Assembly: GCA_028282885.1 (NCBI GenBank)
Contig: JANQGX010000007.1
Span: 186,001-250,000 of the forward strand
Direction of reading: 5' to 3'
Origin: SAR324 cluster bacterium
GTDB lineage: Bacteria > SAR324 > XYD2-FULL-50-16
DNA: 64,000 bases
Under the pieces are notes generated by a model that worked only from the letters and a program-made list of their open reading frames with translations, was not told where the DNA came from and did no database searches. The translations under genes were made by a program, and so were the position numbers. Within the stretch, counting starts at the first letter, position 1; each line of letters begins with the position of its first letter. Below are positions 46,327 through 64,000 of the stretch, in pieces.

Positions 46327-47202
46327 ATGACAATCAAACGACGAAGCTTTCTGAAAGGCCTCGCCGGTACCGGAGCAGGATTGAGCATGGCTCCCCTGTT
46401 AACCGGTAAAGCTGAGGCCCGGGAAGTAAGAAGAGTTCAGGATGACCACGTCGGCATGCTATACGATGCGACCAAGTGTATCGGATGCAAAGCCTGTGAG
46501 ACAGCCTGCAAGACTGCAAATAAACTTGAGCTTGAGCTCGATCCAACCGGGACGTTTGACGCACCAAGGGATCTTTCCACCAATGCTTTCAACATCATCA
46601 AAATGTACAACGGCCCTGAGGGGATGTCGTACGTCAAAAGGCAGTGCATGCATTGTGTGGATCCCAATTGTGTTTCCGGTTGCCCGACCAGCGCTCTGAA
46701 CAAGGAGCCAAACGGAATCGTTAGCTACGACAAGGATGCCTGCTGTGGCTGTCGCTACTGTCAGATGAACTGTCCGTACAATATTCCGAAGTTTGAGTTC
46801 AACGACTGGTATGGCGAAATCAAAAAGTGTGAACTGTGTCGCGAAACCAACCTTGTCACCAGCGGACAACCGGCCTGCACCGAAGCTTGCCCGGCAGGGG
46901 CTGTGATTTTCGGCAAAGTGAAAGACCTGCTGGTTGAAGCCAAAAGCAGGGTTCAGAAATCGCCCAGTCTCTATCTCAACCATGTTTATGGTGAAAAGGA
47001 TGGCGGCGGTACGTCAGTTCTTTATTTATCCAAGGTACCTTTTGATAAGCTGGGATTACCGAATCTTCCGGAATACTCTCAGGCGTATGCCCAGGAAAGT
47101 GTACAACACAGATTGTACCAGTATCTGGCTCTGCCGGGTATTTTGTATGTGATTCTGGCGGGTATTGCATTCAAAAACCGTTCTGGACATAAGGAGGACT
47201 GA
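46327..47202 (+). CDS. hybA: Hydrogenase 4Fe-4S electron-transfer subunit HybA
   Basis: Periplasmic iron-sulfur subunit linking the hydrogenase to its membrane partner; 291 residues. Tat signal KRRSFLKGL at 4-12. Four ferredoxin-like Cys motifs occur: CIGCKACETACK, CMHCVDPNCVSGCP, CCGCRYCQMNCPYNIP and CELCRETN...CTEACP, the DmsB/HybA pattern. A C-terminal transmembrane helix (LALPGILYVILAGIAF) follows. It begins 3 bp after hybO and shares one base with hybB. Confidence 0.94.
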   Translation: MTIKRRSFLKGLAGTGAGLSMAPLLTGKAEAREVRRVQDDHVGMLYDATKCIGCKACETACKTANKLELELDPTGTFDAPRDLSTNAFNIIKMYNGPEGMSYVKRQCMHCVDPNCVSGCPTSALNKEPNGIVSYDKDACCGCRYCQMNCPYNIPKFEFNDWYGEIKKCELCRETNLVTSGQPACTEACPAGAVIFGKVKDLLVEAKSRVQKSPSLYLNHVYGEKDGGGTSVLYLSKVPFDKLGLPNLPEYSQAYAQESVQHRLYQYLALPGILYVILAGIAFKNRSGHKED

Positions 47203-48347
47203 TGGATCATGAAAAAGCTTTAGGTGGAAAGATCTTTACAGGTCCTGTCGCCTTTTTACTGCTACTGTTCCTTGTCTGCGCTTACTTCCTGGTCATCAGG
47301 TACATCAATGGGATCGGAACTGTCTCGAACTTGACAGACCATCAGTCCTGGGGTGTCTGGAAGGTTGTCGGCGTACTCGTCGGAGCAGCTTTTGTGAACG
47401 GGGGATATGTCACGGCGTTTCTCGTTTATATCGTCAACAAAGGGCAATACCACCGCTTTGTGAGGCAGGCTGTTCTGTTTTCACTGCTCGGGTATTCGTT
47501 CGCTGCAACATCCCTGGTTTATGACACAGGTCGTTATGTAAACCTGCTTAATTTCTTCATTCCGAAGTATATGCAACCCAATTCAGCCCTGTTTGAAGTA
47601 GGGATTTGTATCACGGCATATATTGTCATTCTTGCCATTGAGTTTTTACCGGGTCTCCTGGAAAAGTTCATGCCCGAAGGTGAGAAGTCGGACAATCTAG
47701 CTGCAAATCTCCATGCCTTCCTGAACAAGGTGCTGTTTTTGACGGTAGCATTTGGTGTTCTTCTGCCAACCATGCATCAATCCGGATTGGGTGCACTTGC
47801 CTTCCTGATGGGACAAAAGATCAGTCCATTGTGGCAGACCCCTTGGGTGTCTTTCCTCTATGTGACCTCTTCCGTCTTCATGGGACTGTGCATCGTAGTG
47901 ATTATAGACATTCTGTATCATCCAAAGAGCCTTAAGAACCAGGAGTACCTGGGACTGCTCAAGACCCTTTTGAAGATCGGTGTCTATGTTGCGATTTTCT
48001 GGATTGTTTTCCGTTTCGTGGAAGTGATCCGCAATGGAGGTGCTAGTAACCTCTTTGATGTTGGATTTGAATTCATCTTCTTCTGGGCTGAAATGATCCT
48101 GATCGTCATTGGCATGATAATGATCAGAAAAACAAATGCCAGAAGTCTGTTTTCAGGAGCAGCATTAATGCTTACCGGTGGACTGTTATACAGAATCAAC
48201 ACTTATCTCGTCGGCTTTGAGGGAGCTCCCGGTGTTACCTACTTCCCTTCAGTCCCCGAACTGATGATATCCATCGGCATGTTAGCGCTTCAAATTGCTA
48301 TTTTCATTACATTTGTTAAAATCTTTCCGATCATTAGCCAAGAGTAG
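47202..48347 (+). CDS. hybB: Hydrogenase membrane subunit HybB (NrfD-like)
   Basis: Integral membrane quinone-reducing subunit, 381 residues with about ten hydrophobic helices, of the NrfD/PsrC family. Segments WGVWKVVGVLVGAAFVNGGYVTAFLVY and LPTMHQSGLGALAFLMGQKISPLWQTPWVSFLYVTSS are typical of HybB. The ATG overlaps the hybA stop (TGATG). With HybA it passes electrons from H2 to the quinone pool. Confidence 0.94.
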   Translation: MDHEKALGGKIFTGPVAFLLLLFLVCAYFLVIRYINGIGTVSNLTDHQSWGVWKVVGVLVGAAFVNGGYVTAFLVYIVNKGQYHRFVRQAVLFSLLGYSFAATSLVYDTGRYVNLLNFFIPKYMQPNSALFEVGICITAYIVILAIEFLPGLLEKFMPEGEKSDNLAANLHAFLNKVLFLTVAFGVLLPTMHQSGLGALAFLMGQKISPLWQTPWVSFLYVTSSVFMGLCIVVIIDILYHPKSLKNQEYLGLLKTLLKIGVYVAIFWIVFRFVEVIRNGGASNLFDVGFEFIFFWAEMILIVIGMIMIRKTNARSLFSGAALMLTGGLLYRINTYLVGFEGAPGVTYFPSVPELMISIGMLALQIAIFITFVKIFPIISQE

Positions 48348-48361
48348 CAGGAGAATATACT

Positions 48362-50065
48362 ATGGGAAAAATTGTTACAATAGATCCTATCACTCGTATT
48401 GAGGGACATCTAAGAATCGACATTGAAGTGGCAAATGGTAAAGTTACCAATGCCTGGTCATCCGGACAAATGTTCCGGGGAATAGAACTGATCCTCCAGG
48501 GCAGGGACCCCAGAGAGGCCTGGATGTTTACACAGCGATTTTGTGGCGTATGCACGACAGTTCACGCCATTGCTTCCGTCAGGGCAGTTGAGAACGCCCT
48601 GAAACTGGATATTCCTCTGAATGCCCAGTTGATCAGGAACATGATTATGTCGGCTCATGCCATTCATGATCACATCGTTCATTTCTATCATCTTGCTGCC
48701 CTGGATTGGGTTGATATCGTGTCGGCCACCAAGGCAAACGTACAAGCAGCGGCAAACCTGGCTCAAAGCCTTTCACCATGGTATCGTAATTCGGTTCATG
48801 AGTTCAGGGCAGTCCAGGAGAAAGTAAAGGCCATTGCCGGAACCAAGCAGTGGGGAATCTTCTCCAACGGATATTGGGGCCACAAAGCGATGAAGCTGAA
48901 GCCTGAAGTCAACCTCATCGCCGTTGTACATTATCTACAGGCACTGGAATACCAGAGAAAGATCAACGATGCCGTTGGTTTGCTCGGTGGTAAAACACCT
49001 CATATCCAGAATCTGGCTGTTGGCGGGGTTGCCAACGCTATTAATCTGGATGACGAAACGGCTCTCAACATGACCCGTCTGTTGAAAGTTAAGAACTTCT
49101 TTGATGAGGTTCGCGATTTCGTCAATCAGGTATACCTGATCGACGTTGCAGCAGTCGGATCATTCTACCTCGATTGGGCCGGTCATGGAGCTGGAGTAAC
49201 CAACTATCTCTCTGTTCCGGAGTTCCCGATTGATGAGAAGGGAACCCAGTTTGATGCCAAGGGTGGTGTCATCTTCGGTGGAAATCTTTCCAAAACCAAA
49301 GCCATCACCTCCTTCAACGATCCTTATTTCGAGGATAATGTCAAGGAATCCATTGCCCGAGCATGGTATGACGGAGACTGGTCAAAGCATCCCTACGAAG
49401 AGACCACTGATCCCAAGTACACCAAGTTTGACTATGATGGGAAATACTCATACGTCAAGGCTCCGAGATTCCAGGGCAAACCGATGCAGGTTGGCCCTTT
49501 GGCGCAAGTCCTGGGAGCTTATGCTTTGGGTGATGAAAGAACCAAGAAGTATGTTCACCTTGCGGTTGATACCATTAAGTCGGTCAGCAAAAAGAGTGTT
49601 CCGCTTAGCGCCCTCAATTCAACGCTGGGTAGAATTGCAGCCAGAGCCGTTCGCTGTGCCGTAATCAATGACATGGCTCTCAAGCACTGGAACATGCTGG
49701 TGAACAACTTGGGTAAAGGTGACACCGAGTATTTCAACAAGCCGGTATTCCCGAAGGGAGAAATCCAGGGATTTGGTTTCCATGAAGCGCCGAGGGGAAC
49801 CCTGTCTCATTGGGTTGTTATCGAAGATGGCAAGATTAAAAACTACCAGGCAGTTGTTCCTTCAACATGGAATGCGGGACCAAGGGATGCAGACGGCAAC
49901 CGCGGACCATACGAAGAGAGCCTGGTTGGGAATCCCATTGCCAATATCGAGAAGCCTTTGGAAGCCTTGAGAACGGTTCACAGTTTTGATCCCTGTCTTG
50001 CCTGTGCCATTCATGCCTTCGATCCCGATGGAAAAGAGATGGGGGTTATAGAAGTTAATGTCTAG
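48362..50065 (+). CDS. hybC: [NiFe] hydrogenase large subunit HybC
   Basis: Catalytic subunit, 567 residues. N-terminal L1 motif for Ni: TQRFCGVCTTVHAIASV; C-terminal L2 motif: FDPCLACAIHAF. Cleavage after the His of CAIH by the endopeptidase would remove a 16-residue tail ending in EVNV. The start ITRIEGHLRIDIEVANG is canonical for group 1 periplasmic enzymes. It lies 14 bp behind hybB and overlaps the protease gene hybD by 8 bp. Oxidises H2 in the periplasm. Confidence 0.96.
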   Translation: MGKIVTIDPITRIEGHLRIDIEVANGKVTNAWSSGQMFRGIELILQGRDPREAWMFTQRFCGVCTTVHAIASVRAVENALKLDIPLNAQLIRNMIMSAHAIHDHIVHFYHLAALDWVDIVSATKANVQAAANLAQSLSPWYRNSVHEFRAVQEKVKAIAGTKQWGIFSNGYWGHKAMKLKPEVNLIAVVHYLQALEYQRKINDAVGLLGGKTPHIQNLAVGGVANAINLDDETALNMTRLLKVKNFFDEVRDFVNQVYLIDVAAVGSFYLDWAGHGAGVTNYLSVPEFPIDEKGTQFDAKGGVIFGGNLSKTKAITSFNDPYFEDNVKESIARAWYDGDWSKHPYEETTDPKYTKFDYDGKYSYVKAPRFQGKPMQVGPLAQVLGAYALGDERTKKYVHLAVDTIKSVSKKSVPLSALNSTLGRIAARAVRCAVINDMALKHWNMLVNNLGKGDTEYFNKPVFPKGEIQGFGFHEAPRGTLSHWVVIEDGKIKNYQAVVPSTWNAGPRDADGNRGPYEESLVGNPIANIEKPLEALRTVHSFDPCLACAIHAFDPDGKEMGVIEVNV

Positions 50066-50579
50066 TCAAGGTATTGTCATTCTCGGAATCGGCAATGTCC
50101 TGCAAAGAGACGATGGTATTGGGATTAAGATAATAAAATATCTCGAATCCCGGTACCGCTTCACTGATGAAGTGGAACTCGTCGACGGCGGAACAACCGG
50201 TGCAGGATTGGATCGATCCATTGTCAACAAAGAGTGGGTCATCGTTATTGACTCACTTGCCGTTGAAGGCACACCCGGTGAGGTCAGGGTGCTTTCAGGA
50301 GAACAATTCATCAACCGACCCGGAGTAACCAAGTGGTCGCCCCACCAAGTCGGATTCCTCGATCTGATTCAATTGATGACCCTTGAAGGTACCGGTCCTG
50401 AAAAGCTGGATCTGATAGGCATCATTCCTGCGGATATCGACCATGGTATTGAGATAACCAAAGAGGTGGACGAGGCGATTGAGCCAGCAACCAACGAGTT
50501 GCTGAAGCTGCTCCGGGACGCCAATGTGTTTCCCAGCAAGCTCGATCCGACATTAAAGCCAGATTACTGGTGGACATAG
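50058..50579 (+). CDS. hybD: Hydrogenase maturation endopeptidase HybD
   Basis: Cuts the C-terminal tail from the large subunit once nickel is inserted; 173 residues. The family start ILGIGNVLQRDDGIGIKIIKYL carries the first metal ligand as Asp in place of the common Glu; the second acid is in VIDSLAVEGTPGEV and the His in SPHQVGFLDLI. The overlapping start with hybC ties its production to its substrate. The last 20 residues are an extra tail. Confidence 0.93.
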   Translation: MSSQGIVILGIGNVLQRDDGIGIKIIKYLESRYRFTDEVELVDGGTTGAGLDRSIVNKEWVIVIDSLAVEGTPGEVRVLSGEQFINRPGVTKWSPHQVGFLDLIQLMTLEGTGPEKLDLIGIIPADIDHGIEITKEVDEAIEPATNELLKLLRDANVFPSKLDPTLKPDYWWT

Positions 50580-54152: not shown

Positions 54153-54581
54153 ATGGATCGGTACGACTATCTGGTCAACAGACTCAAAGAGCTCAATCAT
54201 CGAATCACGCCTCAAAGACTGGCCATATTGAAGATTCTTACTTCAAGCGACAGTCATCCGAGTGCGGAAATGATTTATGATCAGATCAAAGCCGAGTTTC
54301 CTTTTACCAGCTTTGCCACTGTTTATAAAACCATCGCATTAATCAAAGAATTGGGAGAAGTTTTGGAGCTTGAATTCAGTAACGACAGCAATCGATACGA
54401 CGGCCGTAGGCCTTATTCTCATCCTCATTTGATTTGCACTTCCTGCAAGAAAATACTCGATCCCGATCTTGACTCGGTTAATCATCTCCAAAAGGAGATT
54501 GTCAAAGAAACCGGCTTTACGGTGACTAATCACCGGCTGGATTTCTTCGGAATCTGTCCTGAATGCCAGAAAAACAGGTAG
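54153..54581 (+). CDS. perR: Fur family regulator, PerR-like
   Basis: Metal-dependent repressor of 142 residues. The winged helix contains ITPQRLAILKIL and PFTSFATVYKTIALI (recognition helix). Structural zinc is held by CTSC (95-98) and CPEC (135-138). Residues typical of the PerR regulatory metal site are present: His35, Asp83, His90 and His92 (RYDGRRPYSHPHLIC) and an acidic residue in ILDPDLD. PerR senses peroxide by oxidation of these histidines when iron is bound. The catalase gene follows 359 bp downstream on the same strand, and both are preceded by Fur-type boxes, which supports a peroxide-stress role over iron control. Confidence 0.85.
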   Translation: MDRYDYLVNRLKELNHRITPQRLAILKILTSSDSHPSAEMIYDQIKAEFPFTSFATVYKTIALIKELGEVLELEFSNDSNRYDGRRPYSHPHLICTSCKKILDPDLDSVNHLQKEIVKETGFTVTNHRLDFFGICPECQKNR

Positions 54582-54605
54582 GGTTAAAAAAATTTGCCTT
54601 ATTAT

Positions 54606-54620
54606 TGATAATGATTTTCT
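54606..54620. promoter_or_regulatory. Fur/PerR-type operator upstream of catalase
   Basis: TGATAAT-G-ATTTTCT keeps one perfect half-site and five of seven bases of the other. It lies 25 bases after the perR stop. An AT palindrome, ATAATT-AC-AATTAT, is at 54625-54638 just downstream. The rest of the 359-bp gap to katA shows no supported gene. Confidence 0.5.
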
Positions 54621-54940
54621 TTTTATAATTACAATTATTTTCTTTAGATAATATTTATTATTAAAAACACCCTCTTTTTAAGCAGCACACATTCGATTTT
54701 TGTGAAGATATTATTGCTTAAACATGTTTAACGATTCAGACAACTCATGTTTACCTCGCATTTCGTTGTGCTGCTGTTTGAATTTCTCTTCACTTGCCGT
54801 TTTGCCGGCAACAACTTCAACCCCTATCCCTGGACAAGAACAGCCCGCAACGTGGGAACTGCTGAATTGTTCAGGTTCGCTGTTTCTTTCCCGGATTTTT
54901 GTTTAAACCTGGTTTTTTGAATAAGACAAGGAGATAGAAG

Positions 54941-56392
54941 ATGAAGAAGAAATTGACCAATAATGCAGGAGCACCGGTTGCTGATAATCAGAATGTAGCT
55001 ACAGCCGGTAAACGCGGCCCTATGCTACTTCAAGACGCCTGGTTTCTGGAAAAGCTGGCCCATTTTGACAGAGAGGTCATCCCTGAAAGAAGGATGCATG
55101 CGAAAGGTTCGGGAGCATACGGAACCTTTACTGTCACCCATGATATAAGCCGTTATACAAGAGCCAAAATCTTTTCAAAGGTCGGCAAGAAAACCGATCT
55201 GTTTCTCCGTTTTTCGACTGTTGCCGGTGAAAGAGGGGCCGCAGATGCAGAGAGGGATATTCGTGGCTTTGCAGTAAAGTTCTATACCGAAGAAGGAAAC
55301 TGGGATCTGGTTGGTAACAACACTCCGGTTTTTTTCCTGCGTGATCCTTTAAAATTCCCCGATCTGAATCATGCAGTTAAAAGAGATCCCAAAACCAACC
55401 TGAGGAGTGCTCGTAACAACTGGGATTTCTGGACTTCACTGCCGGAGGCTCTGCATCAGGTGACCATCACCATGAGTGATCGCGGTATACCTTATTCCTA
55501 TCGGCACATGCATGGATTTGGCAGTCACACATTTAGTTTGATAAACGCCGAAAACGAGCGATTCTGGGTTAAGTTTCATTTTCACTCCGAACAGGGAATC
55601 AAAAACCTGACGGATGAGGAGGCAGAAACCCTGATCGGTAAAGACCGCGAAAGCCATCAAAAGGACCTTTTTGACAGCATAGAAAAAGGTGATTTCCCCC
55701 GGTGGCGCATGAAAATCCAGGTTATGCCTGAGAAAGAGGCTGCCAATTGTTCCTTTAATCCTTTCGACCTGACGAAAGTCTGGTATCATAGTGACTATCC
55801 ATTAATCGATGTTGGGATTCTGGAATTGAACCGAAACCCGAAAAATTATTTTGCCGAAGTGGAACAGTCGGCATTTAATCCGGCCAGTGTGGTCCCCGGA
55901 ATCGGTTTTTCACCAGACAAGATGCTGCAGGGACGTCTGTTTTCTTATGGAGATGCCCAGCGTTATCGGCTGGGAGTCAATCACCATTTGATACCGGTGA
56001 ATAAGGCCCGTTGCCCGTTCCACAGTTATCACCGCGATGGCGCAATGCGGGTTGATGATAATCACGGAGGCACCTTGGGATATGAACCGAACAGTTATGA
56101 GGAATGGCAGGAACAACCCGATTTTTCAGAACCGCCTCTTGACCTGGATGGGGCTGCAGACCGCTGGAATCATCGGGAGGACGAGGACAACTATTCCCAG
56201 CCCGGCAAACTGTTCGGAATAATGAGTGATTCCCAAAAACAGGCCCTGTTTGAGAATACCGCTCGCGCTATGGGAGATGCTCCCAGGGAAATCAAGGTAC
56301 GACATATCTCCAACTGCATGAAAGCGGATCCGGACTATGGAAAAGGTGTCGCAGAAGCCATCGGGATAGATTTGTCCGAAATACCGGATTAG
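54941..56392 (+). CDS. katA: Catalase (monofunctional haem)
   Basis: Small-subunit haem catalase of 483 residues, dismutating hydrogen peroxide in the cytoplasm. Recognised parts: [45 protein letters not shown] with the catalytic His, [43 protein letters not shown] with the distal Asn, and [19 protein letters not shown] with the proximal Tyr (F-S-Y-x-D-x-Q-R-Y-R). The ATG follows AAGGAG. It lies downstream of the PerR-like gene and probably is its target. Common in anaerobes exposed to air. Confidence 0.96.
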
Positions 56393-56932: not shown

Positions 56933-58234
56933 TTAATCCAGTCCGAAGTCTTCCAGATCAGGTCCTAAATGGCCCCTTTCATTTTCACCCAGAATTCCCA
57001 TGGAGAGACAGATCAGTGTCCAGAAATGGATACAGTGATAGTTGCCACCATAGTGTTCCTGAAGATCATGAATCTGGGAATGACAGTTGTGACAGGGCGT
57101 AATGACATAATCTGCACCAGTCGCCATAACCTGATCAAACTTTATCTTACCATAGGTCCGTCGTTCCTCTTTGCGGCCCGATTGGAGGAATCCGCCACCC
57201 CCACCACAACAGTAGTTGTTGGAGAGGTTGGGACTCATATCGATGAAGTTCTCTTCACCCACCAGTTTCTTCAGCACGTAGCGCATATCTTCACCTGCTT
57301 TGTCGCCGTAGGTTTTTCTGACGAGCTGACAGGGATCCTGCAGGGTGAATTTGATACCTAAATCCTTATTCCAGTCCGAGCTGACCGGAAGTTTACCTTC
57401 TCTGATCCATTTGGCATATTCCAAACGAATATCGGAGATCTCAAAGCTATGAGGGATATTGAATTTTTGCAGTCCAACCTGGAATGCGAATAGTTCGTGT
57501 CCTCACTCGGTGTTGAGCCAGACTTTGCAGCCTAACTCTTCAACCGCCTGGGCTTTGATTCGGATATTCTCCTCCCAAGCTTCATTATCGGCCAGGAAAA
57601 GGCAGTAGTTTTCAGCAGCCCATCCTTTATCACTGTAGGTCCAGTCGGCTCCAACAGTGTGCAGGATTTTCCAGAGAGGCACCATCTCGTCCTCTTCCAT
57701 TTGGGGCTCACGGGAGTTCTGATTGACGAAATAGTAAGCACCTTTCTTGTTCATCGGCGCCTGCAGATTTTCAAATCCTTCCTGTTCCTCCCTTACTTCT
57801 TCCAAGAGTTCTTCAACGGTTTCCGAAAACATCTCACCCGTCAGGCCCATAGCGCTTCTACTGTCAACGCTGTTTGCCTTGTCACAGGAGGCCCTGATCC
57901 CCTTGGGTCTTTCGTCCCTGGGCCAGGCAGCACGCATGTTGAAGACCAGTTGGGGAATATTGATATTCATCGGGCAGACATACATACATCTTGTACACAT
58001 CGTACAAGCCCAGGCCCATGGGGTAGTGGTCAACTCTTCATCCATCCCCAGCACTGCCATACGCAGCACCTTTCTCGGGTCCAGACCATCTATACCCGTT
58101 GCGGGACATCCGGAGGCGCAAGCACCGCAGGTCAGACAGGCGTCAAGATTTCCCTCCTCGGGAAGAATCTTCTTCACCTTATCCAGAAACCTGCTGGTCC
58201 TTTTCCCGGATATTTTGATTGCTTCTTCAGTCAT
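56933..58234 (-). CDS. Selenocysteine-containing Hdr/DsrK-like iron-sulfur oxidoreductase
   Basis: The reading frame of 433 residues contains one in-frame TGA (57503-57505, codon 244), read here as selenocysteine. Upstream are two ferredoxin motifs, CLTCGACASGCP (Cys33-43) and CTMCTRCMYVCP (Cys77-87). The TGA falls in LNTE-U-GHELFAF, where HdrD/DsrK/TmcB-like proteins have Cys in an E-C-G-H motif of the first CCG domain. Downstream is a full CCG domain: DPCQL (302), YCCGGGGG (342-343) and TPCHNC (381, 384). Homology therefore continues across the TGA in the same frame, and a SECIS-like hairpin follows it. The protein fuses the HdrC and HdrB roles and would reduce a disulfide or pass electrons to a thiol carrier. 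Last gene of the Hdr/Flx operon. Confidence 0.85.
57469..57487 (-). promoter_or_regulatory. SECIS-like hairpin of the Hdr/DsrK-like selenoprotein
   Basis: On the minus strand GCA-T-TCCA-GGT-TGGA-C-TGC folds into a 3+4 bp stem with a T/C internal mismatch and a three-base GGT loop. It begins 15 bases after the TGA, and the loop lies about 23 bases after it. Distance, short stem and G in the first loop positions fit the bacterial SECIS pattern. Confidence 0.65.
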
Positions 58235-58267: not shown

Positions 58268-59104
58268 TTACTCAAAAGGGAGGTTATTCAATTCTTCCAG
58301 GGTGAAAACCGGCCCGTCCTTACATACAAACTTTTCGCCTATGTTGCATCGACCGCAGATACCAATTCCGCATTTCATTCTTTTCTCCAGGGAGTTGATA
58401 ATATGGTCGTGAGCATAACCCAGTTTGTCCAGAACCGGCTGGGTAAAGCGAATCATAATCGGTGGTCCGCAAACGATGGCATATGTATTTTCGTCAGCCG
58501 GGGGTGCCTTTTCTTCAGTAATGGTGGGAACAAATCCAACGTTATATTTCCAGTCAGGATCATCGGTTGCGTCCACGGTGATATGCATTTTGATATCTCC
58601 GGCCGCTTCCCAGGCCTTCAATTCCTCCTGATACAGCAGTAGCCCCGGTGATCTGGCTCCATAAATTACATTGATCTCACCAAATTTATCTCGGTTTTCC
58701 AGCATATAAACGATGGAAGACCTCAGGGTGGTAAAGGCAAAACCACCCCCAATAATAACAACATTTTTACCTTCCAGCTCTTTCCAGGGATACCAGTTTC
58801 CCAGGGGTCCGCGAATCCCCATGATATCACCAACCTGCATGTTGTGAAGGTATTTGGTTACAAGCCCGGTTTTATTTACGGTAAACTTTACGAATCCTTT
58901 CTCAGTCGGAGAAGAGGCGATGCCGATAGGGATCTCGCCTTTTCCTGTTACAGACAGTTCCGCGAATTGACCTGCCTTGTAAGAGAACTTCTCTTCGTCT
59001 TCAGGATTCAAAAAGACAAACTTGAATGTTTTTAGATTCTTATCCTCGGTCTCGGTTATGATCTCGTCAATTCGGACGGGATAGGGCAGATATGGATTTT
59101 GCAC
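58268..59104 (-). CDS. flxA: FAD/NAD(P)-binding oxidoreductase subunit, FlxA-like
   Basis: Ferredoxin-NADP reductase-like subunit of 278 residues, related to HydG/AsrB gamma subunits and FlxA. FAD-binding part: FSYKAGQFAELSVTGKGEIPIGIASSP. NAD(P) part: VVIIGGGFAFTTLRSSIVYML and YAIVCGPPIMIRFTQPVL. The C-terminal [2Fe-2S] site is RMKCGIGICGRCNIGEKFVCKDG. It is positioned 33 bp upstream of the Hdr-like selenoprotein and 13 bp after an Fe-S subunit gene. In Flx-Hdr complexes it is the NADH entry site. Confidence 0.88.
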   Translation of the reverse strand: MQNPYLPYPVRIDEIITETEDKNLKTFKFVFLNPEDEEKFSYKAGQFAELSVTGKGEIPIGIASSPTEKGFVKFTVNKTGLVTKYLHNMQVGDIMGIRGPLGNWYPWKELEGKNVVIIGGGFAFTTLRSSIVYMLENRDKFGEINVIYGARSPGLLLYQEELKAWEAAGDIKMHITVDATDDPDWKYNVGFVPTITEEKAPPADENTYAIVCGPPIMIRFTQPVLDKLGYAHDHIINSLEKRMKCGIGICGRCNIGEKFVCKDGPVFTLEELNNLPFE

Positions 59105-59117
59105 TGGATTTCTCCTT

Positions 59118-60167
59118 TTACGATTCCGATTTAAGCGGCTTATAATTATTCATGGTTTCACAGACGTCTCTGATATCTATGTTCACAGGACACAAATCAA
59201 TACATCGACCGCATCCGACGCATTGGACATCTGAATCATACTTGTCTGGATAATATTTCAGCTTATGCATAAACCGTTGTCTGACGCGCATTTCCTTAAC
59301 GGGTCTCGGGTTATGCCCGGAGCCTTCTAGAGTAAACAGCGGATACATGCAACTATCCCAGTTACGCATCCGCTTGCCTTCAGTGCCTTTTACCTCATCC
59401 TGGATATCGAAACACCAGCAGGTTGGGCAGCTATAAGTACAGGTTCCACAATTCAGGCAGGCAAAGGCGATATCTTCCCAGATAGGGGCGGAGAACAAAT
59501 CATTGGCATTTTTGCCCTTCAACTGATCACTGTTGATTTTAGCGGTGATCTTCTTTTCCGCAGCGTCACGTCTCTCATCAAAAACATTCTCATCCGCGTC
59601 GGTATCCCAACCTGCTGCCTTGGCCAGTGCTTCACCTTTTTCCGTGATCACTTTGGCAAGAATAACCTCCCCTTCTCTGGAGAGCAGTACATCCAGACCG
59701 TTTTCGCTGTACGGACCGCCGCCTACGGAAGTACAAAAACAGGTTGGAGAAGGATTATCGCAGGCCAGCCCGACAAAGGTACTTTGCTCATAGGGTCTGA
59801 CCCAGAACGGATCCGGATATTCCGGATTATCAAAATTACGTTTTACCAACTGGAAAGAAGCCGCATCGCATGGGCGAAGCCCTATAACAGCTTGAGGCTG
59901 ACCATTGAGGTCGACTTCCTTCATGATGTGATGATCCTCTTTGGACTCATCCAGAGTATAGTTGAACATCACCTGGGTTTGAGGATAGACAGTCGACTTG
60001 GCAGAAAGCCTCGTGTTGCCAAGATCCATAACCGGGAGCTGTCCCTGGGCCAGTTCCTTGAACTCAAAACCGTCTTTATCAGCGACAGGACCAAACAAGC
60101 GAAATTCGGACTGCAGCTTTTCCAACCCTTGTCCCCAGGCTTCCTTTTTAATTTTTATGATCTTCAT
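59118..60167 (-). CDS. 4Fe-4S dicluster subunit, AsrA/HydB/FlxB-like
   Basis: Cytoplasmic Fe-S protein of about 349 residues, resembling the beta subunits of sulfhydrogenases and AsrA. N-terminal part has the family segment VIGLRPCDAASFQLVKRNF and CDNPSPTCFCTSVGGGPYS. Two C-terminal ferredoxin motifs are CLNCGTCTYSCPTCWCFD and CVGCGRCIDLCPVNIDIRD. The ATG at 60167 (MKIIKIKKEAWGQGL) is preferred over the in-frame TTG at 60221, which abuts the stop of the upstream gene without a ribosome site. It works with the FlxA-like subunit in passing electrons from NADH to the Hdr proteins (inference from context). Confidence 0.85.
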   Translation of the reverse strand: MKIIKIKKEAWGQGLEKLQSEFRLFGPVADKDGFEFKELAQGQLPVMDLGNTRLSAKSTVYPQTQVMFNYTLDESKEDHHIMKEVDLNGQPQAVIGLRPCDAASFQLVKRNFDNPEYPDPFWVRPYEQSTFVGLACDNPSPTCFCTSVGGGPYSENGLDVLLSREGEVILAKVITEKGEALAKAAGWDTDADENVFDERRDAAEKKITAKINSDQLKGKNANDLFSAPIWEDIAFACLNCGTCTYSCPTCWCFDIQDEVKGTEGKRMRNWDSCMYPLFTLEGSGHNPRPVKEMRVRQRFMHKLKYYPDKYDSDVQCVGCGRCIDLCPVNIDIRDVCETMNNYKPLKSES

Positions 60168-60221
60168 TTCTGTTTGACCTTTCAAAATAGGTTCTTCCTG
60201 AAATTTGTAAACTAAAGCCAA

Positions 60222-61169
60222 TTATTTTACAAATGCATCAGGATCACTGGGATTGAATGAATCCAGGGGTGGGCGCTGCTCTGTGTTGAGACCCGCCTGC
60301 CATTCAAAATTCTCTAAACAATCTTTTTCCAACTTCTTGGTAAAGGCTCGCATGTTTATGCCCATCGGACAAACGGTCTCACAGGAACCGCAATCCGTAC
60401 ATCGGCCAGCACAGTGATAAGCTCGCAGGAAGTGAAATCCACGGGTATCTGTAGCATTGGTGCTCTTCCCCAGCCATTGGGGTTGTGATTCATCCACAAA
60501 ACAGGTGGGGCAATAGCACAATGGGCAGGCGTTCCGGCAGGCATAACAGCGTATACAATTTGAAAGCAGATCTTCAAAATATTGCCATCTGTCATCGCTG
60601 TCCATCTCTTCCACTTCGCGAACATCGGCGTAGCGATCAACGTCCTGGTTAATATCCACTTTCTCCGCAACCATTTCGTCATAGACAACAGGATTGGGAT
60701 GGATACAGACCTCACAATTTTTCCGAAGAACCTCTTTTTTATCAAAAGTTTGTTCCGAACCCGCTCCCTTTACGATTACTTTGTCTGCTTCTTCGATGAC
60801 TTCTATAATATCAAAATCAACAGAATTTGAGACCTTCCTCTTATCGATCATTCCGGTACAAGGAACGCCAATAATGGTCAATTGCTCTCTTTTGATCTTG
60901 TTTTCAATGATATGGGTATTGATATTCCTGGAATCGCAGCCTTTGGCAATAATTCCAATTCGTTCCTTACGGTCGGTCAGGTATGATGCCAGGTTGACAC
61001 CGCAATTGCTGTCCCAAACCAGTTTGTCGGCATCACCCGGATTTTTGACCATACAGGGTTCATTTGACATTGGCAGGCTTCCCTTGCGGAACCCGATGAC
61101 CATGTCTACCTTGTCCTCTCTCAGGAGCTGTGCAGACAGCTCTCTGATCTTTTCAGCATATGTTAACAT
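60222..61169 (-). CDS. 4Fe-4S dicluster protein with FrhB-like N-terminal part, FlxC-like
   Basis: Product of 315 residues. The N-terminal half (YAEKIRELSAQLLREDKVDMVIGFRKGS, GIIAKGCDSRNINTHIIE, TIIGVPCTGMID) resembles the beta subunit of F420-reducing hydrogenase/dehydrogenase families. A middle CEVCIHPNPVVYDE segment is followed by two cluster motifs, CIRCYACRNACPLCYCPTCFVDE and CTDCGSCETVCPMGINMRA. It begins 10 bp after the FlxD selenoprotein gene. Such a protein is typical of HdrA-MvhD clusters in sulfate reducers and their relatives. Exact redox partner is unknown. Confidence 0.83.
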   Translation of the reverse strand: MLTYAEKIRELSAQLLREDKVDMVIGFRKGSLPMSNEPCMVKNPGDADKLVWDSNCGVNLASYLTDRKERIGIIAKGCDSRNINTHIIENKIKREQLTIIGVPCTGMIDKRKVSNSVDFDIIEVIEEADKVIVKGAGSEQTFDKKEVLRKNCEVCIHPNPVVYDEMVAEKVDINQDVDRYADVREVEEMDSDDRWQYFEDLLSNCIRCYACRNACPLCYCPTCFVDESQPQWLGKSTNATDTRGFHFLRAYHCAGRCTDCGSCETVCPMGINMRAFTKKLEKDCLENFEWQAGLNTEQRPPLDSFNPSDPDAFVK

Positions 61170-61179
61170 GTGAGTTCCT

Positions 61180-61599
61180 CTATCCGGCTTTTACAAATTT
61201 CTTGGCAGGTCCCAGTGCCTTGACGGATTCTGTGACTTGCGTGACAACGTCAATAAACTTGGTCGCTTCCGCAGATGAAATCCAGGAAAAATGTAAGCGA
61301 TCCTTTTCGATTCCCATGTGCTCCATCAGGTTCCCTAAGAGTAAGAACTTCCGACGAGCAAAATAATTACCTTCCAGGTAATGGCAGTCTCCGGGGTGTC
61401 AACCAGAGATCCAGACACCGTCCGCGCCATTCATAAATGAGGCTAAGACAAACTTCGGTGACATTCTTCCTGTGCAAGGAATCCGCACAACCCGTATATT
61501 TGCCGGGTACTGCATCCGGCTAACACCAGCAAGATCCGCTGCTCCGTAACTACACCAGTTACAGAGAAATGTTATGATTTTTGGTTCCCAATCTGACAT
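61180..61599 (-). CDS. flxD: Selenocysteine-containing MvhD/FlxD-type subunit
   Basis: Full frame of 139 residues with one in-frame TGA at 61399-61401 (codon 67). Before it: WEPKIITFLCNWCSYGAADLAG with Cys13 and Cys16, and RIPCTGRMSP with Cys42. The TGA sits in GVWISG-U-HPGDCHYLEGN, exactly where the family has Cys in G-C-H-P-G-D-C-H. The homologous sequence goes on to a normal TAG at 61180-61182. MvhD-like subunits carry a [2Fe-2S] cluster and bring electrons to HdrA; selenocysteine at this place is known in VhuD of methanogens. The ATG at 61599 has GGAG 8 bases upstream. A SECIS-like hairpin follows the TGA. Confidence 0.9.
61366..61382 (-). promoter_or_regulatory. SECIS-like hairpin of the FlxD selenoprotein
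   Basis: On the minus strand ATTACC-TGGAA-GGTAAT forms a perfect 6-bp stem with a five-base loop, 16 bases after the TGA. The loop has G at its second position, as in bacterial SECIS elements. The stem is coding sequence for YLEGN. Confidence 0.65.
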
Positions 61600-61689: not shown

Positions 61690-64000
61690 TTAAGCCACAT
61701 CGACCATCGCGAAAATCTGGTCATTATCATATCCATTCAACCGTATCGCACCTGATCGACAGGATGATACACAAAGGCCGCAGCCCTTGCATAATGCGGA
61801 ATTAATTTCGGATTTACCGGCAAATCGTCCTTCCTCTATTAAGGACGGTGCGGAATATGGACAGACTGACGTACAGATACCACAGCCACTGCAAGACATG
61901 GGATCGATGGCTGCTATTTCACCATTAGTGGTAATGGTTCCCTGGGCCAACAAGGTTATGGCCCTGGAAGCAGCCGCCTGACCCTGTGCAACCGCTTCGT
62001 CAATTGGTTTTGGATAATGTGCAAGTCCGCAGAGGAAAACACCATCTGTTGCGAACTCGGACGGACCGAGCTTTGCGTGACGTTCGATAAAGAAGCTGTC
62101 ATCGTTCATCGGTACCTTGAACATCTGGGCGAGTTGATCATCCCTGTTCGGGAGAATCGCCGAGGCCAGCGTCAGCAGATCGGCTTCAATCTCGATGTTC
62201 TTACCCAGAACGTGATCCTTCACCGTAATCGAAACCTTGCCATCTTTAAGAGCAACTGCCGGTTTGTCATTCAGCGAGTAGCGAATGAAGACAACACCCG
62301 CTTTTCTGGCTTCAATATACTTCCGTTCACGTTCTCCGTAGGTTCTGATATCCCTGTAAAGGATAAACACCCTGGCTTCCGGATTCCGCTTCTTCAGTTC
62401 CAAGGCGCTTTCGACTGAGTGTGTACAACAAACCCTGGAACAATAGGGACGTTCCGGTTCCCTTGAGCCTACGCACTGAATAAAGACGGCGCAATCCACA
62501 TCATCCAGGGAAGCGTCGTTGTTGAGCATCTTCTGATCCAACTCCAGACTGGTCACAATCTTGGGATCGTCGCCATAGCAGTATTCCGCGGGCTTGTATT
62601 CCTGACCACCTGTTGCGAGAGTTGCCACACCGTGCTCAATTACCTCCTCTTCATTACCGGAGGTAATCGTCGTCTGGAAGTTGCCAACAAATCCCTCCAC
62701 ATTGGAAACCGCACTGTTGAGATGAATGGTGATGTTTTCTTCAGATTGCACCTGCCCCATCAAATCCGACAGCATATCCGGGATATTCTCACCTTTCCAT
62801 GTCTTATAAAGGCTGTGGGCATTTCCGCCCAATTTGTCAGCTTTCTCGATGAGGTGTGTCTGGTATCCCTGGCGAGCCAGACTCAATGCGGAAGACATTC
62901 CGGACAATCCTCCACCAACGACCATTGCCGTCGGATTGACTGCCAGTTCGGCTTCCTTGAGTGGCATTTTCAGTCCAATTTTGGCCACAGCCATGCGGAC
63001 CAGATCTTTGGCCTTCTGAGTAGCCAGTTCCGGATTTTCCTTATGTACCCATGAGGCGTGGTTCCGAATATTCACCATTTCAAAGAGGTACTTGTTAAGT
63101 CCCGCGTTGATAAGGGTTTCCTGGAACAGGGGCTCGTGGGTTTTCGGAGTACAGGCGGCAACGATGATTCTGTTGAGATTATACTCCTTGATAATCTCGG
63201 TCATGGTAGCCTGGGTGTCCTGGGAGCAGGAATAGAGGTTGTCAGTTACATACTCGACATGAGGCAGTTCCCTGACATAATCAAGAACCTCGGGAATATT
63301 CACTGTCCCGGATATGTTAATACCACAGTGACAGATGAAGGCACCAATCCTGGGACGTTCCCCGATAATGTTCCTTTCCGGAACGATCTCACGGGTTTGT
63401 GTCAGGGTGTTTCGAGCTGCAACCAGGTTCTGTCCTGCAGCGGCAGCGGCCGCGCTTGCATCAACAACAGCCTGGGGAATATCCTTGGGACCCTGGAAGG
63501 AACCGGATACGTAAACACCGGGTTGTGATGTTGCAACAGGAGTCAGGCTGTCGGTCTGACAGAAATTCCCCGGTGTCATTTCGATATTGAACTTCTCGGC
63601 CAGCTCTTTCAGACCCGGGGACGTTTCCAAACCGATTGACAGGACAACCATGTCAAAGGTGTCAACAACCAGTTCACCATCTTCCCGAACATAACGAATC
63701 TCAAGATCACCGGTATCACCCACAGGATCAATCGTATGAACCCTGGATCGAATGAAGTTGATGCCGTGCTTGTTTTTGGCGTCATCGTAATATTTCTCGA
63801 AGTCCTTACCAAAAGTCCGCATATCCATGTAGAAGATGGATGCGTCAAGCTCGCTGTCATGTTCTTTGGCGATAACGGCTTCCTTGATGGCGTACATACA
63901 GCAGACCGAAGAACAGTAGTCATTATCACAATTGTTGGTCTCCCTGGAACCCACACACTGGAACCAGGCAATCTTCTTGGGTTCCTTATGATCGGAAGGT
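61690..64000 (-). CDS. hdrA: Tandem HdrA (heterodisulfide reductase subunit A), partial at window edge
   Basis: Flavin/Fe-S subunit of Hdr complexes where electron bifurcation occurs. The frame is open to the window edge, giving 769 residues of the C-terminal portion. The first part is the second half of one HdrA unit (QCVGSR, YCSSVCCMYAIKEAVIAKEH, ... YVSGSFQGPKDIPQAVVDA). A complete second HdrA follows: IGAFICHCGINISGTV, YLFEMVNIRNHASWVH, the FAD loop AMVVGGGLSGMSSALSL, again QCVGSREPERPYCSRVCCTH, and two terminal ferredoxin motifs CSGCGICTSVCP and CKGCGLCVSSC. The last has Arg where Pro is usual. The gene heads the visible part of the operon; its start and any genes before it are outside. 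Confidence 0.9.
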   Translation of the reverse strand, partial: PSDHKEPKKIAWFQCVGSRETNNCDNDYCSSVCCMYAIKEAVIAKEHDSELDASIFYMDMRTFGKDFEKYYDDAKNKHGINFIRSRVHTIDPVGDTGDLEIRYVREDGELVVDTFDMVVLSIGLETSPGLKELAEKFNIEMTPGNFCQTDSLTPVATSQPGVYVSGSFQGPKDIPQAVVDASAAAAAAGQNLVAARNTLTQTREIVPERNIIGERPRIGAFICHCGINISGTVNIPEVLDYVRELPHVEYVTDNLYSCSQDTQATMTEIIKEYNLNRIIVAACTPKTHEPLFQETLINAGLNKYLFEMVNIRNHASWVHKENPELATQKAKDLVRMAVAKIGLKMPLKEAELAVNPTAMVVGGGLSGMSSALSLARQGYQTHLIEKADKLGGNAHSLYKTWKGENIPDMLSDLMGQVQSEENITIHLNSAVSNVEGFVGNFQTTITSGNEEEVIEHGVATLATGGQEYKPAEYCYGDDPKIVTSLELDQKMLNNDASLDDVDCAVFIQCVGSREPERPYCSRVCCTHSVESALELKKRNPEARVFILYRDIRTYGERERKYIEARKAGVVFIRYSLNDKPAVALKDGKVSITVKDHVLGKNIEIEADLLTLASAILPNRDDQLAQMFKVPMNDDSFFIERHAKLGPSEFATDGVFLCGLAHYPKPIDEAVAQGQAAASRAITLLAQGTITTNGEIAAIDPMSCSGCGICTSVCPYSAPSLIEEGRFAGKSEINSALCKGCGLCVSSCRSGAIRLNGYDNDQIFAMVDVA

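Follow-up and report, generated by a model that had tools for sequence, protein, structure and literature searches.

A predicted selenocysteine-containing HdrD-like protein encoded beside FlxABC-, MvhD-, and HdrA-like genes in a SAR324-group genome

Does a gene that appears to be broken by a stop codon encode one complete iron-sulfur protein, and what would that protein do? The question is raised by an hdrD-like gene in a stretch of 64,000 nucleotides (the window) from a SAR324 cluster bacterium, positions 186,001 to 250,000 of contig JANQGX010000007.1 in assembly GCA_028282885.1. The gene occupies 56933..58234 on the minus strand and has 433 codons. Read from 58234 to 56933, its frame contains a single TGA, codon 244 at 57505-57503 within the motif LNTE-U-GHE, and terminates with TAA. 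The sequence predicts that codon 244 is decoded as selenocysteine (Sec), giving a full-length iron-sulfur protein. The gene adds a member to a published selenoprotein family; new here are the SAR324-group host, the FlxABC partners, and the structural placement of the Sec.

Frame reading and domain searches identify the product as an HdrC-HdrB fusion. Two 4Fe-4S motifs make up the HdrC-like part (residues 30-91; 57962..58147, minus strand), assigned by Pfam Fer4_8 and by matches to HdrC in the PDB. A complete CCG domain 2 follows the TGA (residues 297-388; 57071..57346, minus strand) and carries Cys 302, 342, 343, 381, and 384, as identified by Pfam and by conservation. The Pfam CCG match, at 50.9 bits (cut-off 20.6), is the sole CCG stretch that Pfam reports. 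A preliminary description of this DNA had proposed one continuous Hdr-type protein broken by TGA at 57503-57505, with ferredoxin motifs before the break and a full CCG domain after it. Its coordinates, frame, and motif were right and Pfam bears out both domains; it gave no strand. It also expected a standard gene caller to split the gene, and the standard list of open reading frames (ORFs) does cut it, into 243 and 163 residues.

That split favors reading the TGA as a true stop, leaving two separate proteins or a pseudogene. Conservation makes this reading very improbable and refutes it in effect: among 350 loci of named genomes that encode a relative, the top 80 all retain the two halves together with the TGA, and the hairpin that follows varies by paired changes. 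The aligned codon is TGA in 80 of these 80 loci, which shows conservation and not frequency, the loci being the best of 350 ranked by likeness to the Sec query. Four of the 80 belong to the SAR324 group, and a search of the class genomes recovers these four as well. Cultured strains are among those whose loci carry the TGA: Desulfosediminicola flagellatus (L035), Desulfopila aestuarii (L034), and Desulfoprunum benzoelyticum (L033). The window genome's own paralogue (L024) likewise has TGA at the aligned codon; a kin paralogue (L025, genome G046) carries TGT instead.

A protein database search (E up to 1e-30) returned 2573 matches, of which the best 120 were examined. Glu 243, Cys 244, and His 246 are each present in all 120 of these gene-called relatives, and the five Cys of CCG domain 2 occur in 120, 120, 119, 120, and 120 of them. 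Gene-called sets cut Sec forms short, so Cys at 244 is expected among such proteins. P0096, named 'oxidoreductase, selenocysteine-containing' by its source, carries C in its database sequence. P0004, a database 'Fe-S oxidoreductase' of 532 residues, terminates exactly at LNTE, as if truncated at the Sec codon, after an apparent fused second piece.

Sec and Cys forms were also compared as DNA. The 43 genomes reached through 43 Sec loci hold 108 matches (E up to 1e-100), 89 with one TGA and 19 without, and both kinds coexist in 18 of the 43. These genomes were picked for having a Sec locus, so neither 18 of 43 nor 89 of 108 is a frequency estimate. Cys stands at the site in 19 of the 19 Cys paralogues. 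The preliminary description had suggested looking for this Cys in DsrK, HdrD, and TmcB; it is confirmed within the protein's own family, by the 120 listed proteins and these paralogues. Eighteen of 118 loci, all Sec, were left out before a tree of 125 rows was built. The tree requires at least eight Sec/Cys changes, three of them forced by well-supported branches; shuffled labels average 36.0. Being midpoint-rooted, it gives no direction to the Sec/Cys changes and speaks neither for nor against a transfer into SAR324. A distant second Sec branch (L156-L163) is marked by the motif NTEUGHS, with a hairpin around ATCCTGGAAGGAT; of its eight loci, the seven in the tree form one branch.

Folding and covariation across Sec and Cys genes place a hairpin resembling a selenocysteine insertion sequence (SECIS) at 57469..57487 on the minus strand, 16-34 bases 3' of the TGA, with the loop GGT at 57477-57479. 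The preliminary description had seen it, beginning 15 bases past the TGA, and had suggested a SECIS search; the hairpin is indeed conserved downstream of the TGA among Sec genes. Folded over the corresponding 23-base stretch, 82 Sec sequences average -10.8 kcal/mol in free energy, a further 18 average -10.3, and the 19 Cys paralogues average -3.7. Scored over eight pairs in the 90 Sec sequences that are distinct (out of 100), 91.4% of cells hold a formed pair. The same score is 10.4-41.0% with slid partners and 45.4% in the Cys paralogues; in 500 shuffles of partners, which leave sequence relatedness in place, it averages 84.4% and peaks at 86.4%. An Rfam scan of the window gave no match at the gathering score.

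The loop-closing pair is G-C in 63 of the 90 Sec sequences, T-A in 21, A-T in 1, G-T in 2, T-G in 1, and broken in 2; the lone A-T is the sequence common to the window and L026. The pair consists of the second position of codon 252 (Arg 67, Leu 22, Gln 1) and the third position of codon 253. Of the 19 Cys paralogues, 13 have Trp at codon 252, a residue that no Sec sequence of the 90 has there, and the protein at this point thus seems to be dictated by the hairpin. Among Sec genes the hairpin persists through paired base changes, and most Cys paralogues lack it. Several observations weigh on the other side. The window hairpin, at -7.0 kcal/mol, is among the weakest of the 82; L026 has the same value, and L048 and L024 fold to about -5.9 and -5.8. 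Two Cys paralogues fold to -6.6 (L155) and -7.5 (L154), so the energy ranges touch, and the outermost pair is standard in just 42 of the 90 Sec sequences.

The machinery for Sec insertion, which the preliminary description had named as a check, is encoded in the genome, each component scoring above its cut-off: tRNA-Sec (selC, 62.2 bits), SelB (368.2), SelA (528.2), and SelD (373.7). The SelD gene (L016, G000:C17:35052-35969) is interrupted by one TGA and is likely itself a selenoprotein gene. A genome-wide reassignment of TGA, or a sequencing error, is the least probable explanation of the frame, and no point in its support was found. Within the cluster TGA occurs only at known Sec sites, tRNA-Sec and SelB are present, and error is excluded since other genomes carry the same TGA.

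The identity of the host can also be questioned. The contig could be a contaminant, so that a real selenoprotein would belong to a sulfate reducer and not to a SAR324-group bacterium. Estimated contamination is 4.69% in this genome and 6-7% in three kin genomes with the gene. Of the 52 class genomes, 48 have SelB (E up to 1e-60) and only 4 the HdrD-like protein (E up to 1e-40); class-level and phylum-level searches returned the identical 52 genomes. Set against this, the gene is present in four assemblies from one family group, and the six SAR324-group Sec sequences form one branch with a Shimodaira-Hasegawa-like approximate likelihood ratio test (SH-aLRT) value of 100. Contamination is improbable.

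With a Sec-decoded, SAR324-group gene as the preferred reading, its neighbors suggest the company the protein keeps. In reading order, the operon is hdrA (TGA in CAM-U-IISP), mvhD (TGA in SG-U-HPGDC), flxC, flxB, flxA, and hdrD (TGA), all on the minus strand. The flxA-like gene (58268..59104) encodes an FAD/NAD-binding oxidoreductase resembling AsrB/HydG, the flxB-like gene (59118..60221) an AsrA/ShyB-like 4Fe-4S protein, and the flxC-like gene (60222..61169) a 4Fe-4S protein; family searches define all three, and the Flx names are the authors' reading. The mvhD-like gene (61180..61599, 139 codons), named from motif and position, has its TGA at 61401-61399 in SG-U-HPGDCHY with a hairpin after it, and the ORF list gives no whole mvhD. 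The window holds the 3' part of the hdrA-like gene (61690..63999); the remainder, with its TGA, lies past the window edge at G000:C58:251949.

A second gene set lies upstream, also past the edge: hdrA(U), mvhD(U), hdrA(U), mvhD(U), flxC, flxB, flxA, and hdrD(U). The two sets are tandem and diverged, with identities of 88% for FlxA, 60% for FlxB, 61% for FlxC, and 76% for HdrD. Together, eight in-frame TGA codons stand at Sec motifs of HdrD, MvhD, and HdrA genes within about 22.5 kb (C58:243505-266013; window 57505 onward). The motif scan gave ten hits, and those at C58:267531 and 269925 were dropped for other same-frame stop codons close by. Separate HdrB or HdrC subunit ORFs are absent from C58:242500-266208 among frames of 110 codons or more, and no HdrB scored above the cut-off in the genome search.

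Neighbor counts over the 80 loci are lower bounds, as many of the available stretches are short. HdrA lies near the Sec gene in 36 loci and MvhD in 37. Relatives of FlxA and FlxB (40% or more) lie there in 4, all of the SAR324 group, and relatives of FlxC in 4, namely three of those loci and L102. Elsewhere in the window, a Fur/PerR-like regulator and a catalase, named by eye, adjoin this oxygen-sensitive-looking cluster (54153-56392). A [NiFe] hydrogenase set at 47202-50579 has a large subunit nearest hydrogenase 2, and its C-terminal DPCLAC has Cys, not Sec.

The Sec was placed in the fold with a confident structure model, built with Cys for Sec and without clusters. The fold matches EtfD, its best match, and HdrB. 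Sec244 would be the first position of the CxxC in a decayed CCG domain 1, and His 246 the third, the place at which EtfD carries the His that caps its noncubane cluster. This placement follows from an hhalign alignment with the genome's EtfD-like protein, the helix start in the model, and the printed EtfD ligands. Searches of PDB sequences with sub-profiles aligned CCG domain 1 to no chain shown, and hhalign against the GlcF-like protein of L174 aligned CCG domain 2 only. L175 (G000:C92), an EtfD-like membrane protein by an apparent etfB gene, has a CCG domain 1 without Cys and with the His kept (VTADPHAY). The mycobacterial EtfD (9ojn) differs: it includes a membrane part, binds a linear 3Fe-4S cluster with four Cys, and lacks Sec (PMC13083937). 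Because the first CCG domain is decayed, the disulfide-active site named in the preliminary description is a putative one.

The Sec HdrD-type subunit is probably the disulfide-reducing end of an electron-bifurcating FlxABC-MvhD-HdrA complex. Electrons from NAD(P)H would enter via FlxA and split at HdrA. One branch would pass the 4Fe-4S clusters of the HdrD-like subunit and reach the single noncubane cluster left to it, in CCG domain 2. The Sec244 selenol would face that cluster across a pocket and attack or hold a disulfide, and we infer catalysis by the Sec subunit. According to PMC6687939, FlxABCD-HdrABC is a disulfide reductase that depends on NADH and reduces ferredoxin, and DsrC is its proposed partner in Desulfovibrio vulgaris.

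The best candidate for the disulfide partner here is likewise DsrC. The genome encodes DsrA (551.5 bits), an adjoining DsrB-like protein, and DsrC (142.9 bits), whose C-terminal end KQACKIAGLPKPTGCV contains two Cys. Both C-terminal Cys are functional in DsrC. A DsrC-linked role for the complex is possible. The dsrC, dsrA, and dsrB-like genes are grouped at G000:C35:9490-12293 (L180, L182, L183). Dsr genes, whether reductive, oxidative, or mixed in kind, have been published for members of SAR324 (PMC10591310, PMC11406059).

Some findings speak against the proposed function. The hdrD and dsrC genes sit on different contigs. FlxABC is absent near many Sec relatives (FlxA in 4 of 80 loci), so the complex is not a feature of the family at large. 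The His-capped cluster of EtfD is called non-catalytic (PMC13083937), which argues against disulfide chemistry at such a cluster. The same point underlies a rival that is less probable: a true selenoprotein in which Sec is a cluster ligand or electron relay in a non-catalytic subunit, as thought for the matching EtfD part, and the protein reduces no disulfide. In its favor, the noncubane cluster of EtfD, the best fold match, is rendered non-catalytic by His583, and His 246 is invariant in the best 120 relatives. Yet the first EtfD cluster is held by four Cys, CCG domain 1 here has no such set, Cys 211 and 236 do not appear to lie at the EtfD spacing, and the genome's EtfD-like protein has Asp at the Sec-equivalent site. 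Extending the disulfide-reductase reading, a bolder and rather speculative proposal is a three-Sec, NADH-driven bifurcating complex (HdrA, MvhD, and HdrD; tandem diverged sets; SAR324). The HdrD selenol would stand in for an entire noncubane cluster that was lost; the disulfide chemistry for which HdrB uses two noncubane clusters would then need one iron-sulfur cluster and one selenium, with DsrC as partner.

Listings of the family as a selenoprotein go back to 2006, and the available literature excerpts give no role for its selenium; the proposed placement makes a role testable. Genomes with both Sec and Cys forms (the 18 of 43) offer natural pairs for comparison. ORF lists split the hdrD-like gene and miss the whole mvhD, an annotation trap by which metagenome counts of selenium-dependent electron bifurcation are likely too low.

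Several comparisons bear on which family the protein belongs to. It scores 99.9 bits against DsrK (NF045796, curated cut-off 400), 140.1 against TmcB (NF045724, 735), 171.4 against HmcF (NF045711, 750), and 31.4 against GlpC of glycerol-3-phosphate dehydrogenase (TIGR03379, 279.9). These scores are far below the cut-offs, and the protein therefore resembles these families and is none of them. It also lacks the two complete CCG domains of HdrB, the Cys ligand set being full in domain 2 alone. The 'Fe-S oxidoreductase (GlpC)' selenoprotein family, with the motif UGH (PMC13188914), is the one that fits: a TGA in UGH with Cys homologues, a SECIS-like hairpin, and selA, selB, selC, and selD are all present. 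The preliminary description was correct that GlpC/Hdr-like Fe-S oxidoreductases are among reported bacterial selenoproteins. The family was described with 5 members and a Syntrophobacter operon glpC-hdrA-frhD-frhG-frhA (PMC1794560), is also treated in PMC9312934, and is given 31 and 47 in a table of PMC5029168. A Sec-containing Fe-S oxidoreductase is listed in a marine deltaproteobacterial genome (PMC8318568), and HdrD4 of Desulfobacterium autotrophicum HRM2, a soluble HdrC-HdrB fusion, is named as a selenoprotein (PMC2702500). A 2026 review states that how the family works with its neighbors remains unclear (PMC13188914). In the excerpts of open papers pairing FlxABCD/HdrABC or noncubane clusters with selenocysteine, or SAR324 with selenocysteine, this gene cluster is not described; the paper on the last pairing lists SAR324 organisms by name in a table.

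Like members of the GlpC (UGH) family, the protein has its TGA in the UGH of a GlpC/HdrD-like Fe-S protein, is encoded beside Sec-containing hdrA and frhD/mvhD, and has Cys homologues. Unlike in the printed deltaproteobacterial glpC-hdrA-frhD-frhG-frhA, flxC-flxB-flxA replace frhG-frhA here, in a host that groups with SAR324. HdrD4 of D. autotrophicum is likewise a soluble HdrC-HdrB fusion and a selenoprotein, a likeness of description and not of sequence; its neighbors, in the excerpt available, are other than FlxABC. In comparison with methanogen HdrB/HdrC (5odc), the ferredoxin part matches HdrC by sequence and the two-CCG fold matches HdrB, but here there is one polypeptide, with the Cys set kept in one of two CCG domains. 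FlxABCD-HdrABC (PMC6687939, PMC4287179) shares the clustering of FlxA, FlxB, FlxC, an MvhD-like protein, and HdrA, names that are partly the authors' reading. In contrast to that system as excerpted, separate HdrB and HdrC are replaced here by the fused Sec protein, and HdrA and MvhD carry Sec.
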